DNA of 48,426 nt from Pseudomonadota bacterium (lineage in GTDB: Bacteria > Desulfobacterota > Desulfobacteria > Desulfobacterales > Desulfobacteraceae), in contig JAHJLN010000282.1 in assembly GCA_018821715.1 (NCBI GenBank), forward strand, positions 1 through 48,426, in the 5' to 3' direction. Below, piece after piece: positions 28,614 to 32,858 of this stretch (position 1 is its first letter; each line of letters opens with the position of its first letter). Under the pieces are notes generated by a model. That model worked only from the letters and a program-made list of their open reading frames with translations. It was not told the origin of the DNA and ran no database searches. The translations under genes and the position numbers were made by a program.

Positions 28614-29810
28614 TCAGATCAATCCAATGCCGGCAAAAATATCAAGCCCTCCGTGATAGATGGGTTTTAGTTCAAGCTTTAATCCAAGATATGATTTGCA
28701 TTCTCGTAATGGAAGAATGACCCCGACACGCCATCCTTTAAAATCAGCTGCCAGCTTTTTGCCGATCTCACGGTAAAAGGATTGGGTATCACTTTTCCCC
28801 TCAAGTCTTTTCCCATAAGGCGGATTTAACATCACCACCCCTTTTTCCCCTGGGGATATCATGGAAGGGATGATGGAAAAAAAGTCTTTTTTTGAGACAT
28901 CTATGAGATCGCTGAACCCATGCTTTGAAGTATTTTGTTCCAGGCAGGTGATGGCGCTGTCATCAATGTCAGATGCAAAAATTTGTTTCTGTGAAATGGT
29001 AAGAATTTGTTCTTGAGTCTTTTTTTTTAGATGATCATATGCCTTGCGGCTGAAACCCGGCCAGGTTTCAAAGGCAAAGGATCTGAAAAATCCCGGTGGA
29101 CAATCTGTTTTCATCATGGCCCCTTCAAGGGAGAAGGTGCCGGATCCGCACATGGGATCAATCAATATATCCTCTTTTGAAAAACCGGCCCAGAACAGCA
29201 TGGCAAAGGCAAGATTTTCTCTTAATGGTGCGGTGGTGACCTTTTCTTTTATGCCGCGTTTAAATAAAAGTGTTCCTGTACTGTCTAAAGAGATCGTGAA
29301 CTCATTATGCTCCGCCAGGACGTAAATCGTCTGGTCTGGTTTTTTTTGATCCGCTAAAACAATAGTACCGGCCCCCCTTAATTGATTTGAAATCATCTTT
29401 TCACACCGCTGGGCAATGGCGTCAGAATGGTACAATCTTGATTTTCTGGTGGTCACTTTAAATTTGAGACAGCAATTTTGAGGCAGATAGAGTATCCAGT
29501 CAATGGCGTTTATTTTTTTCTCAAGCGTTTCAAAAGAATCTGCCTTGAACCGGCTGATCCGCATCAAAATTCTTAAAGGGCTTCTTAACCCAAGATTGAA
29601 CCCAATGCAATCCGCAAGTTTGCTTTTAAATTCAATTCCCCCGGAAGTGACCGTAAGATTTTCTTCAGGAAACCCGGAGTCAAGCATTTCATTGTGACAG
29701 ACCTGTTTTAATCCGGGCGAACAAACAGCAAAAAAATCATGTTCCCTGCCGATAATTCTTCTTTTTATTCTTTTTTGGAAGGAAGAATTATGATGGTTAT
29801 AATCTGTCAT
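28614..29810 (-). CDS. RlmL-like 23S rRNA guanine-N2 methyltransferase
   Basis: A THUMP-domain methyltransferase of 398 residues, resembling the N-terminal RlmL half of E. coli RlmKL (m2G2445). The N-terminus FFAVCSPGLKQVCHNEMLD is the ferredoxin-like part of the family, THUMP follows, then DPMCGSGTFSLEGAMM (about 217-232, SAM loop) and the catalytic VVMLNPPYGKRL near 310-321. The gene overlaps the 3' end of aroF by 14 bases and has no strong ribosome site, so it should be translationally coupled to aroF. The RlmK-like partner is at 19713-20678. Confidence 0.8.
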   Translation of the reverse strand: MTDYNHHNSSFQKRIKRRIIGREHDFFAVCSPGLKQVCHNEMLDSGFPEENLTVTSGGIEFKSKLADCIGFNLGLRSPLRILMRISRFKADSFETLEKKINAIDWILYLPQNCCLKFKVTTRKSRLYHSDAIAQRCEKMISNQLRGAGTIVLADQKKPDQTIYVLAEHNEFTISLDSTGTLLFKRGIKEKVTTAPLRENLAFAMLFWAGFSKEDILIDPMCGSGTFSLEGAMMKTDCPPGFFRSFAFETWPGFSRKAYDHLKKKTQEQILTISQKQIFASDIDDSAITCLEQNTSKHGFSDLIDVSKKDFFSIIPSMISPGEKGVVMLNPPYGKRLEGKSDTQSFYREIGKKLAADFKGWRVGVILPLRECKSYLGLKLELKPIYHGGLDIFAGIGLI

Positions 29811-30834
29811 AGGCACAACGGATCAGTCCTTTTGTGGTTTCCCAGGAGATGCATTCATCTGTAATGGAAACACCGTATTTAATCGCAGCCCTGTCACCCT
29901 GGCATTTCTGGCTGCCTTCACAAAGATTGCTTTCAAGCATTAATCCGATAATACTGGTATTGCCTTGAATTCTTTGATCCAGAACACTTTTGAATACAAA
30001 AGACTGACCTTTGAATTTCTGTCCTGAGTTGTCATGGGAACAATCTATCATTACTGCATCCAGAAGGTTTTTCTTTTTCAGCTCTTCCTGAACTCTTCCC
30101 ACGGAAATCGGATCGTAATTCGGGTGGGGACCGCCACGAAGGACAATATGCCCGAAGGGGTTTCCTTTAGTACTGACCACACAGGAATATCCTTGTGAGT
30201 CGATTCCGAGAAAATGCTGGGGGGCACCGGCTGCCGTCATGGCATTGATGGCGGCGGAAAGGCTGCCGTCGGTACTGTTTTTAAATCCAACCGGCATGGA
30301 AAGGCCGCTGGCCATTTCACGATGGGTCTGGGATTCTGTTGTCCTTGCACCAATGGCCACCCAGGTTAGAAGGCCGGCAATATATTGGGGTATGATGGGG
30401 TCAAGAATTTCCGTGGCAGTGGGAATTCCCATTTTGTTGATTTCAATCAACAGGGACCTTGCTTTTCTTAACCCTTCATCAATGTTATAGGACGCATCCA
30501 GAAAGGGATCATTAATCAACCCTTTCCATCCAACCGTTGTCCTGGGTTTTTCAAAATATACCCTCATGATCAGGTTGATTTTTCCTTTAACCTCTTTTCT
30601 TAATTGTTTCATTTTTCCGGCATATTCAAGGGCGGCATCCGTGTCATGGATTGAGCAGGGTCCGGCAATCACAAGAAGTCGGGTATCTTTTTTATGCAGG
30701 ATGTTTTCAATATCATGACGTCCGTCAATGACGGTTTTTGCAACCGCATCTGTTATCGGGAGCTCTTCTTTAATGGCTGCCGGTGAAATAAGGGGCTTGA
30801 ATTCTTTTACATTTACATCATGGGTCTGTTTCAT
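29797..30834 (-). CDS. aroF: DAHP synthase, type I (AroF/G/H)
   Basis: It condenses phosphoenolpyruvate and erythrose-4-phosphate to DAHP, the first step to aromatic amino acids. The 345-residue protein has VIAGPCSIHD near 57-66, MRVYFEKPRTTVGWKGLIND near 90-109, ARTTESQTHREMASGL near 165-180, GFKNSTDGSLSAA near 185-197 and DCSHDNSGQK near 264-273. The ATG at 30834 has AAAGGA upstream; another ATG at 30858 has none. The leader holds a Phe/Tyr-rich peptide (30933-31010) and an intrinsic terminator, so expression is very probably controlled by attenuation. Phe- or Tyr-feedback of the enzyme itself cannot be read with confidence. aroF-rlmL looks like one unit. Confidence 0.93.
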   Translation of the reverse strand: MKQTHDVNVKEFKPLISPAAIKEELPITDAVAKTVIDGRHDIENILHKKDTRLLVIAGPCSIHDTDAALEYAGKMKQLRKEVKGKINLIMRVYFEKPRTTVGWKGLINDPFLDASYNIDEGLRKARSLLIEINKMGIPTATEILDPIIPQYIAGLLTWVAIGARTTESQTHREMASGLSMPVGFKNSTDGSLSAAINAMTAAGAPQHFLGIDSQGYSCVVSTKGNPFGHIVLRGGPHPNYDPISVGRVQEELKKKNLLDAVMIDCSHDNSGQKFKGQSFVFKSVLDQRIQGNTSIIGLMLESNLCEGSQKCQGDRAAIKYGVSITDECISWETTKGLIRCAYDRL

Positions 30835-30875
30835 GGTCTTTTCCTTTGCAGTTTTCATCCAAAAGCCGGCAACCC

Positions 30876-30916
30876 AAAAACAAAAAAGCCGCAGGCTTTG
30901 GCTGCCTGCGGCTTTT
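30876..30916 (-). terminator. attenuator hairpin in the aroF leader
   Basis: On the minus strand a 13-bp stem (arms 30904-30916 and 30884-30896, core GCCGCAGGC/GCCTGCGGC) with a 7-base loop is followed by TTTTTTGTTTTT. It is a strong intrinsic terminator lying 42 bp before the aroF ATG and 16 bp after the leader-peptide stop. A competing pairing is available: leader GGTCTGCCTG (30953-30944) with CAGGCAGCC (30908-30900), a nine-pair helix with one bulged base, which breaks the terminator stem. Confidence 0.88.
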
Positions 30917-30932
30917 ATGTTAAAATTAAATG

Positions 30933-31010
30933 CTAGCGCAAAACAGGCAGACCGGTATAAAAATAATACCTAAAGTAAAAATAAAATCTGTCGGTTAAGC
31001 AAAAGTTCAT
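30933..31010 (-). CDS. aroF leader peptide, Phe/Tyr-rich
   Basis: A 25-residue open reading frame between the promoter region and the terminator. It starts with ATG at 31010 behind AAAAGGA, reads MNFCLTDR, then FYFYFRYYFY, then TGLPVLR, and stops at TAG (30935-30933). Ten of 25 residues are Phe or Tyr, nine of them within a run of ten. This is what attenuator leader peptides look like: scarcity of charged tRNA-Phe or tRNA-Tyr would stall the ribosome in the run, free the antiterminator segment and let aroF be transcribed. It is too short for most gene finders. The peptide is read from sequence; the mechanism is inferred from pheA, trp and similar systems. Confidence 0.85.
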   Translation of the reverse strand: MNFCLTDRFYFYFRYYFYTGLPVLR

Positions 31011-31033
31011 TTGTTTTTTCCTTTTAAAGCTCA

Positions 31034-31062
31034 AAGTAACCATATAATTTTTCTCAAGTCAA
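31034..31062 (-). promoter_or_regulatory. candidate aroF promoter
   Basis: On the minus strand TTGACT (31062-31057) is followed after 17 bases by TTACTT (31039-31034). The -35 is good and the -10 poor; TTGTCT with TATATG at about 15-bp spacing is an alternative. Transcription would start some 20 bp before the leader-peptide ATG. Confidence 0.4.
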
Positions 31063-31139: not shown

Positions 31140-32858
31140 TTAAAAATTAAAGGTTGTATCCATTTCTTCATCAGAGATCAAAACGGTTTTATTATGCGGC
31201 GGCAGCGGTTCATTATAAAAAAATTCCGGCAGCCGGTCATCTTTATGGGTGAATCCGGCTTTCCGGTTGAATTCCAATTCCTCTTTTAACACCCGGATAC
31301 CCAGGGCTGGAATATCGTCCCCAACCAGGTGTGTGCCGAATCTGGCATTCATGGCGTTTAAAAATGCCATGCCGCCCTCCGGTGTTGTCAAAGGAAAGCT
31401 TGCCAGCAGGCACAGGCCGGTGCAATCAACCGAAGCCATTGCAATCTGCGTATTCCTGGATGCTTGTACCTGGCCTTCGGGCTTCAGGGGATCGAGAGCA
31501 CCGGTCATATACTCCCCAACGACGTTTCCGGCCGTATGATCCGCACCCATGGGTGAGGTGGCATAAGTGACGGCATTCCCCTGCATGGCACGAGGGTCAT
31601 ATGCTGCAATACTCTGGCCTTTGACGGTGGGAACACGTTTGTGATGAAGATGTGATCCAACTGCGTCAGGGCCGTTGCCTAAAATTTTTCCGAAATTTGT
31701 ACCTGCTGCAATTTGCTCGACCATCTCAATGGCAGCCGAACCATCGCCGAACTCAATTTTTCCGGCATCCATTGCAACAGCTATGCCCACACCGATGTTC
31801 ATGGTATCAACGCCGATATCATCACAAAGCCTGTCCAGTCTTGCGATTGTGTCCAGATCACTAATGCCGGTCATGCCCCCCATGGACCAGATGGTTTCAT
31901 ATTCAAGTGAAGAGGTTACATATTTTCCCTCTTTATCAACAAATTCGTTTGAACACCTTACCAAACACTGGGAACACCCCAGGTGCGATGTCTGGCCTCC
32001 CCGTTCCTGAATGAGTTTGGCAAGGGTTTCTCCACTGATTTTTTCCCAGTTGTCCATGGTTCCTTTTGTCGCATTGAGACTTGGGAAAGCACCCATGGAA
32101 TTGACAGGAGCCACAAGTCCGGCCGTCCCTAATGCCGGCAACATCTGACCGGTCATTGGATGGGCTTTCAGCGCTTGAACAAACGCTTTTGCCGCTTTTT
32201 TAAACCCTTCCGGATCTGCAATGGCATCGGCATTCTTGCCCTGTTGATCGATGACAATCGCTTTAAGTCCCTTGGCGCCCATGACGGCTCCCATCCCTCC
32301 GCGGCCTGCAGCCCGGCAGGGGCGGCCATCCACATCAGACGCCTGAATGGATGCCGACGTCAGTTGGTGTTCGCCCGCAGGCCCAATGACCAGGATAGAA
32401 TTTTTCTCACCATATTGGTCAAGCAGTTTCTCTGTGGCTGAATAAGTTTTCATTTTCTTATACTCATTTGCCGGAACAAGAACAGCCTCTCCTTGTCCAT
32501 CAATTTTCAAAACAAAAAGGCCATCCCCAGATGCCTGTCCGCTGATGACAATGGCTGTGATACCCAATCGCCCTAAAGAAGCGCCCATAGTCCCCCCGGC
32601 ATTGCTTTCCTTGATTGTACCGGTCAACGGGCTTTTGGCACCAATGGACACCCTGCTGGTATTCGGGAAGCTTGTTCCGCTCAGGGCACCCGGAGCAACA
32701 ATAAGAAGGTTTTCAGGGCCGAGGGGATCGCATGTCGGCGGAACCTGTGCATTGATCATAACCGATGTAAGGCCTCTGCCGCCAAGGCCCATATACTGCT
32801 CTGGAACCTGCGAAACCGTGATTGATTTTTTTGTCATATCGACATTGATAAATTTCAT
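31140..32858 (-). CDS. tungsten-type aldehyde:ferredoxin oxidoreductase
   Basis: An AOR-family enzyme of 572 residues that oxidises aldehydes to acids and reduces ferredoxin, using a tungsto-bis-pterin cofactor. N-terminal domain features are YMGLGGRGLTSVMI (about 22-35), GALSGTSFPNTSRVSIGAKS (about 57-76) and the pterin-binding GRPCRAAGRGGMGAVMGAKG near 180-199. The [4Fe-4S] ligands are GCSQCLVRC near 293-302 and DCTGLC near 480. The ATG at 32858 has AGGAG six bases upstream; the ATG at 32864 abuts the site. It is the last gene of the leftward aminotransferase-TRAP series. The substrate is inferred to be the aldehyde made by that aminotransferase. Confidence 0.87.
   Translation of the reverse strand: MKFINVDMTKKSITVSQVPEQYMGLGGRGLTSVMINAQVPPTCDPLGPENLLIVAPGALSGTSFPNTSRVSIGAKSPLTGTIKESNAGGTMGASLGRLGITAIVISGQASGDGLFVLKIDGQGEAVLVPANEYKKMKTYSATEKLLDQYGEKNSILVIGPAGEHQLTSASIQASDVDGRPCRAAGRGGMGAVMGAKGLKAIVIDQQGKNADAIADPEGFKKAAKAFVQALKAHPMTGQMLPALGTAGLVAPVNSMGAFPSLNATKGTMDNWEKISGETLAKLIQERGGQTSHLGCSQCLVRCSNEFVDKEGKYVTSSLEYETIWSMGGMTGISDLDTIARLDRLCDDIGVDTMNIGVGIAVAMDAGKIEFGDGSAAIEMVEQIAAGTNFGKILGNGPDAVGSHLHHKRVPTVKGQSIAAYDPRAMQGNAVTYATSPMGADHTAGNVVGEYMTGALDPLKPEGQVQASRNTQIAMASVDCTGLCLLASFPLTTPEGGMAFLNAMNARFGTHLVGDDIPALGIRVLKEELEFNRKAGFTHKDDRLPEFFYNEPLPPHNKTVLISDEEMDTTFNF

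Follow-up and report, generated by a model that had tools for sequence, protein, structure and literature searches.

The stretch of DNA analysed here (48,426 nucleotides, hereafter the window) carries on its minus strand a short reading frame rich in Phe and Tyr codons, then a hairpin and then aroF, and this raises the question of whether the frame encodes a leader peptide through which the ribosome controls the transcription of aroF, or whether ORF and hairpin have another explanation. Attenuators of the pheL-pheA and trpL type combine a leader ORF, the 1:2, 2:3 and 3:4 logic of alternative helices, and an intrinsic terminator, and in the attenuator of the ilv operon one leader senses several products of one pathway. 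The window element shares its helix logic with pheL-pheA and trpL, which differ from it in the gene and in having sensor codons for a single amino acid; with the ilv type it shares a leader for several amino acids, branched-chain there, aromatic here. What the DNA itself displays is the ORF, its codon run, the pairings, their covariation, the geometry of stall sites and the conservation of the whole, and of the readings considered, one fits these features far better than the others and is, we think, very probably right: attenuation of aroF transcription mediated by the ribosome.

The original prediction had described a 25-codon ORF with a ribosome site and a ten-residue run containing nine Phe or Tyr, a 13-bp terminator with a U-tract 16 bases past the ORF stop, a rival pairing of a leader segment with the terminator arm, a GGTAT/ATACC hairpin, and an aroF start 42 bases past the terminator. 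All of these are found where they had been placed (Table 1): the ORF, its ribosome site and its run are read directly, the small hairpin is present, the rival segments do pair, and the distance to aroF fits the ATG at 30834. The AGGA of the ribosome site (31022-31019) sits 8 nt 5' of the leader ATG, and the single non-aromatic residue of the run is Arg (AGG), one base away from TGG. The terminator hairpin, AAAAGCCGCAGGC-AGCCAAA-GCCTGCGGCTTTT (30916-30884, minus strand, 13 bp), is followed by the T tract, and its 5' arm begins 16 nt past the leader stop. The pairing of GGTCTGCCTG with CAGGCAGCC was confirmed by folding and is a perfect match short of one A. The 171-nt leader as a whole folds better than its shuffles (z = -2.74, with 2 of 200 shuffles equally stable). 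Rfam gave no match at its curated gathering score in ten loci that included the window element, and at a relaxed threshold nothing that explains the element (the best match in the window was STnc40, at 35.7 bits against a cut-off of 45).

Table 1. Features of the aroF leader region, in window coordinates, and what each rests on
Feature	Position	Strand	Basis
Probable -35 element TTGACT of the leader promoter	31057..31062	minus	Recurrence of TTGAC across loci
Ribosome-binding site AAAAGGA of the leader ORF	31019..31025	minus	Read directly
Leader peptide ORF MNFCLTDRFYFYFRYYFYTGLPVLR, 25 codons and stop	31010-30933	minus	Read directly; conserved among aroF loci
Segment 1, CGACAGATT, pairs with segment 2 (1:2, anti-antiterminator), mismatches in the window	30985..30993	minus	Least supported helix
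Sensor run FYFYFRYYFY, codons 9-18, Phe/Tyr 9/10	30986-30957	minus	Read directly; conservation
Small hairpin GGTAT/ATACC within the run	30970-30954	minus	Read directly; folding
Segment 2, GGTCTGCCTG, antiterminator strand inside the leader ORF	30953-30944	minus	Pairing tests; folding
Intrinsic terminator 3:4, 13-bp stem, 7-nt loop, T tract	30916-30876	minus	Read directly; scans; covariation
Segment 3, CAGGCAGCC, comprising part of the 5' arm and loop of the terminator; partner of segment 2	30908-30900	minus	Covariation; folding
aroF ribosome site	30847-30842	minus	Outside the helices described
aroF, 3-deoxy-7-phosphoheptulonate synthase, aroFGH type, controlled gene	29797..30834	minus	NCBIfam NF009395 (499.5 bits), TIGR00034 (470.4 bits)

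The product of aroF is, by its NCBIfam profiles, a type I-alpha DAHP synthase. Its first in-frame ATG lies at 30858, and an ATG with a ribosome site at 30834; we prefer the latter because of this ribosome site and because a stop codon immediately precedes the equivalent Met in two relatives (L163 and L179). In-frame stops in several aroF relatives were considered as selenocysteine sites, an idea that we rejected after checking 150 loci: the stops of L163 and L179 precede the real start, the gene of L167 is split by a frame shift, and no further locus among the 150 has a stop between the tblastn start and a point close to the end of the gene. The window genome has a single gene of the aroFGH type. 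Two further DAHP synthases, of the other type, score above the curated cut-off; one of them is a fusion with prephenate dehydratase and the other precedes a gene that, from its sequence, we take to be aroB. The ORF that follows aroF in the window encodes an RlmK/RlmL-like methyltransferase (28614-29816) and overlaps aroF by 20 nt (29797-29816), so that the attenuator may control the methyltransferase too.

Conservation was assessed in 150 aroF loci, from the genome of the window and from genomes of its family and order, a leader being defined as an ORF of 8-60 codons, started by ATG, GTG or TTG, in which 6 or more of 9 residues are aromatic, located 400-40 nt upstream of aroF. The homologous leaders that the original prediction proposed to look for are indeed widespread, a short aromatic ORF being found at 134 of the 150 loci, against 19 of 1500 dinucleotide shuffles and none of 142 far-upstream stretches; at 7 aromatic residues in 9 the figures are 116 of 150, 2 of 1500 and 0 of 142 (these loci are related, and so do not amount to 150 independent cases). 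Among the 16 loci below the threshold, four (L169, L184, L198 and L222) combine a strong hairpin with a leader of 5 aromatic residues, L170 has both a hairpin and a leader-like ORF, though farther upstream, and nine have neither leader nor hairpin by scan. A hairpin kept after loss of the ORF, which had been named beforehand as evidence against attenuation, was found in at most two of the 150 (L175 and L207); in L109, the leader is altered and the terminator not clear. At a threshold of 5 in 9, leaders are found at 139 of the 150 loci and at 13 of 28 new loci from a search of the phylum, that is, at 152 loci in all. One scan finds a terminator in 151 of these 152, and in 148 the terminator starts 5-45 nt past the leader stop. 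The loci of the phylum search that go without a leader are 14 whose AroF is at most 55% identical to that of the window, and L246, which lacks upstream sequence. Matches to the AroF protein occur in 77 of 86 genomes of the family, 104 of 291 of the order and 77 of 395 of the phylum, some of them weak or due to other enzymes.

These data bear on the idea that the hairpin merely ends transcription of the upstream gene, the ORF being a product of chance in T-rich DNA. The leader is T-rich, and in the window an aldehyde ferredoxin oxidoreductase-like gene does end upstream of it, at 31140 on the same strand; however, a relative of this gene precedes only one of 144 loci, which is the window itself, so that leader and hairpin co-occur without it. 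Such ORFs also seldom arise in shuffled DNA: when the window stretch 400-40 nt upstream of aroF was shuffled with its dinucleotides kept, none of 2000 shuffles reached the observed 8 aromatic residues in 9 within a short ORF, and 4 reached 7 in 9. Moreover, TTGAC is found 25-85 nt 5' of the leader start in 101 of 132 loci (84 of 1320 shuffles). We regard the chance reading as extremely improbable for the window, and as unlikely as a general account. Full sigma-70 matches (10 of 12 positions) occur at 17 of 132 loci, compared with 21 in 660 shuffles. In the window, a consensus promoter scan returned no site before the leader and no good -10. A search of the window genome by aromatic codon-run pattern was set aside, since it gave fewer matches (13 on one strand, 22 on the other) than did the same pattern reversed as a control (34 and 43).

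The content of the run was examined in the 133 non-redundant loci that remain when 4 loci without a terminator at 5-45 nt and 15 that are more than 92% alike are taken from the 152. The most aromatic 9-residue windows of these leaders contain 568 Tyr, 375 Phe and 52 Trp among 1197 residues, and the aromatic residues number 995 in frame against 277 and 323 (each of 1197) in the other two frames, a contrast that is partly by construction, since the windows were chosen as the most aromatic in frame. Over whole leader peptides, Tyr is found in all 133, Phe and Tyr together in 128, and all three aromatic residues in 59. Of the 58 loci that fit a simple pattern, 17 have Trp as the mid-run residue, 14 have Arg and 7 have Gly. 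Within the run, Phe, Tyr and Trp interchange, i.e. the aromatic character is kept and the identity of the residue is not.

The helices were compared in an alignment of 60 of the 133 loci (about every second in list order), and it appears that terminator and antiterminator covary, the 1:2 helix more weakly so. For 3:4, 95.1% of cells are paired with 41 double-change cells, and none of 500 shuffles is as high on any of five measures. For 2:3, the values are 81.0% and 28 (0 of 500 shuffles), with the number of pairs showing a double change matched by 10 and the number of pair types by 13 of 500 shuffles; for 1:2, they are 79.7% and 21 (0 of 500), matched by 46 and 11 of 500, respectively. By the caveat of the covariation tool itself, related sequences may beat such shuffles even without structure. 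When the partners are slid by 1-3 columns, pairing falls to 28-56% in the three helices, with up to 10 (3:4), 14 (2:3) and 20 (1:2) double-change cells. This last value makes 1:2 a weakly supported helix: slid by two columns, it has 20 double-change cells against 21 and 19 pair types against 17, with far fewer paired cells. In terms of energy, segment 2 pairs over the 133 loci at a mean of -22.7 kcal/mol with its own arm, against -19.7 with the arm of another locus and -15.0 when segment 2 is shuffled; single loci beat 95% of their own shuffles in 88 of 133 cases for 2:3 and in 63 of 133 for 1:2.

It could also be argued that the leader works as a nascent peptide, its conserved end GLPxVR jamming the ribosome in answer to a ligand in the manner of TnaC, rather than through slow decoding of Phe and Tyr codons, and the C-terminal sequences GLPVLR and GLPGVR do recur in many loci. 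Nevertheless, in several loci (L144, L236-L238, L240 and L242-L245) the RNA segment concerned (GTCTGCC, GTTTGCC or a sequence close to these) is read in another frame, which gives different peptides such as DRFAWGI (the frame tally is rough, as the motif also matches neighbouring bases), and one of them, L240, keeps the pairing with the terminator arm at -21.6 kcal/mol. Since the same segment encodes other residues in these loci, the GLP motif looks like RNA in disguise. The interchange of Phe, Tyr and Trp within the run speaks in the same direction, and we consider peptide arrest to be very unlikely, by comparison with an attenuator that reads its codons.

How stalled ribosomes would act on such an attenuator was modelled by masking 13 nt from the first base of the A-site codon, with segment 4 still unmade. 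In the window, 2:3 has a probability (mean over those of its pairs that remain exposed) of 0.99 with the A site at any of codons 1-16; the value falls to 0.71 at Phe17 and is 0.00 at Tyr18 and at all later codons, the stop included. The folding with and without ribosome cover that had been suggested thus gives the antiterminator as long as the stall lies at codon 17 or before, and no longer once the last Tyr of the run is reached. These values place the run (codons 9-18) at the downstream limit of the region where stalling would rescue transcription, and in the window the antiterminator is freed by stalls before codon 18 generally, the run not being required for this. In every one of the 133 loci, at least half of the codons of the run are positions at which a stall frees the antiterminator, whereas a ribosome at the stop frees it in 6 of 133 (8 with 11 nt masked, 5 with 15 nt masked). 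When the spacer between run and terminator is shuffled, 82 of 133 loci still pass the half-of-run test, with a mean fraction of 0.61 against 0.99, so that this test of geometry is weak by itself and partly reflects a G+C-rich arm finding some partner. The complete window leader always favours the terminator at equilibrium (probability 0.98), and the switch would then depend on kinetics, as expected of a kinetic switch. The window thus presents what is known from attenuators of the trp and phe type: a predicted ORF with its ribosome site, pathway codons, a terminator, an antiterminator that excludes it, and a suitable stall geometry (with the caveat of the shuffled spacers). The pheA/trp-like logic put forward in the original prediction gains support from the conservation of the run, the co-occurrence of ORF and hairpin, the covariation of the helices and, with a weak control, the geometry of stalling.

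In the mechanism that we propose, RNA polymerase would transcribe the leader with a ribosome trailing through the 25-codon ORF. With charged tRNA-Phe and tRNA-Tyr both plentiful, the ribosome would reach the stop and cover segment 2, the terminator 3:4 would form and transcription would end before aroF. If either charged tRNA were short, the ribosome would stall within FYFYFRYYFY, leaving segment 2 free to pair with segment 3 before segment 4 is made; once 2:3 had formed there would be no terminator, and aroF would be transcribed. Transcription and translation of the leader, stalling, a role for both Phe and Tyr, and regulation itself are what we infer from these features, and the most likely consequence is that a sulfate reducer would make the AroF enzyme, at the first step of aromatic synthesis, only when Phe or Tyr is scarce. 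The same alternative helices could in principle work after transcription, on the translation of aroF or the decay of its mRNA, but the 3:4 hairpin ends in a T tract, like an intrinsic terminator, and the ribosome site of aroF lies outside the helices described; we find action at this later stage scarcely credible, and retain transcription termination as the step controlled.

The leader of aroF seems to belong to a wider family. A covariance model of the 60-locus alignment finds a match in 84 of the 86 genomes of the family at E-values up to 0.1 (values that are rough by the tool's own account). Among the matches listed, we analysed 60 secondary ones, i.e. not before aroF, whose genes were assigned by protein clustering and by NCBIfam on representatives (L339, L336, L323, L364 and L354, with L232 of the window genome for the group of DAHP synthases fused to prephenate dehydratase, or DAHPS-PDT). 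This set leaves out antisense self-hits, aroF hits, the own-genome hit at L232, two strong matches (G040:C351 and G051:C181), G040:C426, and one match each in G015, G034, G030 and G062. Aromatic genes follow 56 of the 60 matches: 44 precede chorismate mutase-prephenate dehydratase (CM-PDT) or DAHPS-PDT, 8 tyrS, 2 ADH synthase and 2 trpE (the trpE protein is truncated and reaches 508.3, the cut-off being 517.7). The four others are L354, before ilvD, and L362, L376 and L379. Codons were counted by class in the 10-residue stretch richest in aromatic residues, within whichever short ORF is the most aromatic, five unclassed loci and L379 being left out, and they follow the gene: 108 Phe and 1 Tyr at DAHPS-PDT (18 loci), 108 Phe, 48 Tyr and 6 Trp at CM-PDT (24 loci), 41 Tyr and nothing else at tyrS (7 loci), 8 Phe and 9 Tyr at ADH synthase (2 loci), and 7 Trp, 2 Phe and 1 Tyr at trpE (2 loci). 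As the model was built on runs of Phe and Tyr, the search favours leaders of this kind, and it is the match between codons and genes from one class to another that is telling.

The window genome itself contains a second attenuator of this family, a Phe leader (MNKMTLKNMVNFGPFFCFFRSVHPV) before the DAHPS-PDT fusion (G000:C422:7644-7786; L232, about 2693-2520, minus strand), with two hairpins followed by T tracts, as judged by eye; at the other locus for a DAHP synthase of this type (L231, which starts near a contig edge), the scan found no aromatic leader. Among 30 tyrS loci examined, Tyr leaders (e.g. YYYCGYYPYP) are found in 11 of 11 loci of one tyrS clade (L394-L404, from ten genomes of one genus and one of another in the same family) and in 0 of 19 others; seven of the genomes of this clade show a second tyrS match, some of them partial. 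Two hairpins in succession also occur at aroF: a second terminator hairpin lies 6-15 nt past the first in 33 of 133 aroF leaders (e.g. L118, L122, L125 and L235), against 0 of 152 other terminators with a second hairpin within 20 nt in a nearly identical scan of 148 loci; the aroF of the window has none. With 2:3 imposed, all 33 allow the 3' arm of the first hairpin to pair with the 5' arm of its neighbour, so that both terminators could be disarmed at once; covariation lends weak support to this pairing (-17.2 kcal/mol, against -16.0 with arms of other loci). On balance we favour the view of a lineage-wide regulon whose codons are set by the branch of the pathway, with Phe and Tyr (and Trp) at aroF and ADH synthase, Phe at DAHPS-PDT, mostly Phe at CM-PDT, Tyr alone at one tyrS clade and Trp at trpE, and in which some members would carry two terminators 6-15 nt apart with inner arms able to pair, one stall being able to disarm both. 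Two further leaders may be mentioned here: L323 and L326 read FYFYFRYYF before ADH synthase, the entry enzyme of an alternative aromatic route, and L354 has an Ile/Leu/Val-rich leader (ILSVLILVEVIIIT) before ilvD.

Attenuation of a DAHP synthase gene by a leader with Phe and Tyr codons is already in print, and the suggestion that such control is little described stands for the lineage, and not for the gene. In Corynebacterium glutamicum, the passages concerned describe the aroR leader of aroF as acting by ribosome-mediated attenuation through Phe-Tyr-Phe (PMC11802643, PMC4046766), with an effect of Phe limitation and none of Tyr limitation (PMC11802643). Like the window leader, aroR has both Phe and Tyr before a DAHP synthase gene; unlike it, and in another phylum, it has only these three residues where the window has 9 Phe/Tyr in 10. 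In Acholeplasma, uORFC-13-1 has been proposed as a Phe uORF before aroF, with 24 representatives from Acholeplasma and environmental sequences only (PMC8632094, in the part on this element). It resembles the window in being an upstream ORF beside a terminator before a 3-deoxy-7-phosphoheptulonate synthase gene, whereas its description stresses at least one Phe codon instead of a long mixed run. Attenuation of aroF in Escherichia coli (aroF-tyrA) had been hypothesised earlier (PMC8632094 and PMC2659441, both in passages citing Camakaris 1980), and a motif predicted before aroF of Shewanella is tabled as an attenuator sensing Tyr-tRNA (PMC2659441). These concern the same gene family as the window, but as a hypothesis and a computed motif, and the passages cited give no leader peptide. 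The pheL-pheA and trpL attenuators of E. coli are described, in the relevant passage, in PMC11802643. For Phe/Tyr operons of Actinobacteria, the section concerned reports no RNA element upstream; for tyrosine it points to T-boxes, while among genes of other aminoacyl-tRNA synthetases it gives trpS, leuS and pheST as having leader-peptide attenuators (PMC1262725). A Leu/Phe leader is listed in Lactococcus (PMC2864571, in the list concerned), and the main text of PMC2965389 mentions neither aroF nor Desulfo. Among the matches listed, our literature search gave, in the portions of the sources covered, no such leaders in Desulfobacterota and no leader-peptide attenuator at tyrS; earlier accounts from proteobacteria, if any, would most likely be in Vitreschak 2004 and Panina 2001, both cited in PMC1262725.

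Given the cases from C. glutamicum, Acholeplasma and E. coli, what is left as novel concerns the lineage and the wider regulon: apparently new, as far as these searches reach, are a lineage-wide family without an Rfam match at cut-off (in ten loci) and its programme of codons. This suggests that a large group of environmental sulfate reducers would set its aromatic supply by leader-peptide attenuation, a mode of control best known from a few model bacteria. As the leaders differ in their aromatic codons, the family is a natural experiment on how the choice of codons relates to what an attenuator senses, and it includes an apparently tyrosine-only sensor at tyrS.

Finally, a broader set of contigs, partly from the same organisms, provided 80 aroF loci, in which a looser scan found a leader in 12 of the best 13 (titled Desulfobacterales or Deltaproteobacteria); the same scan also flags 17 of the remaining 67, although few of these contain a genuine run. 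The one striking case among them comes from outside the phylum (L020, on a contig titled Latescibacterota), with an aromatic leader-like ORF (YRYFYFYFYY) 220-76 nt before aroF.
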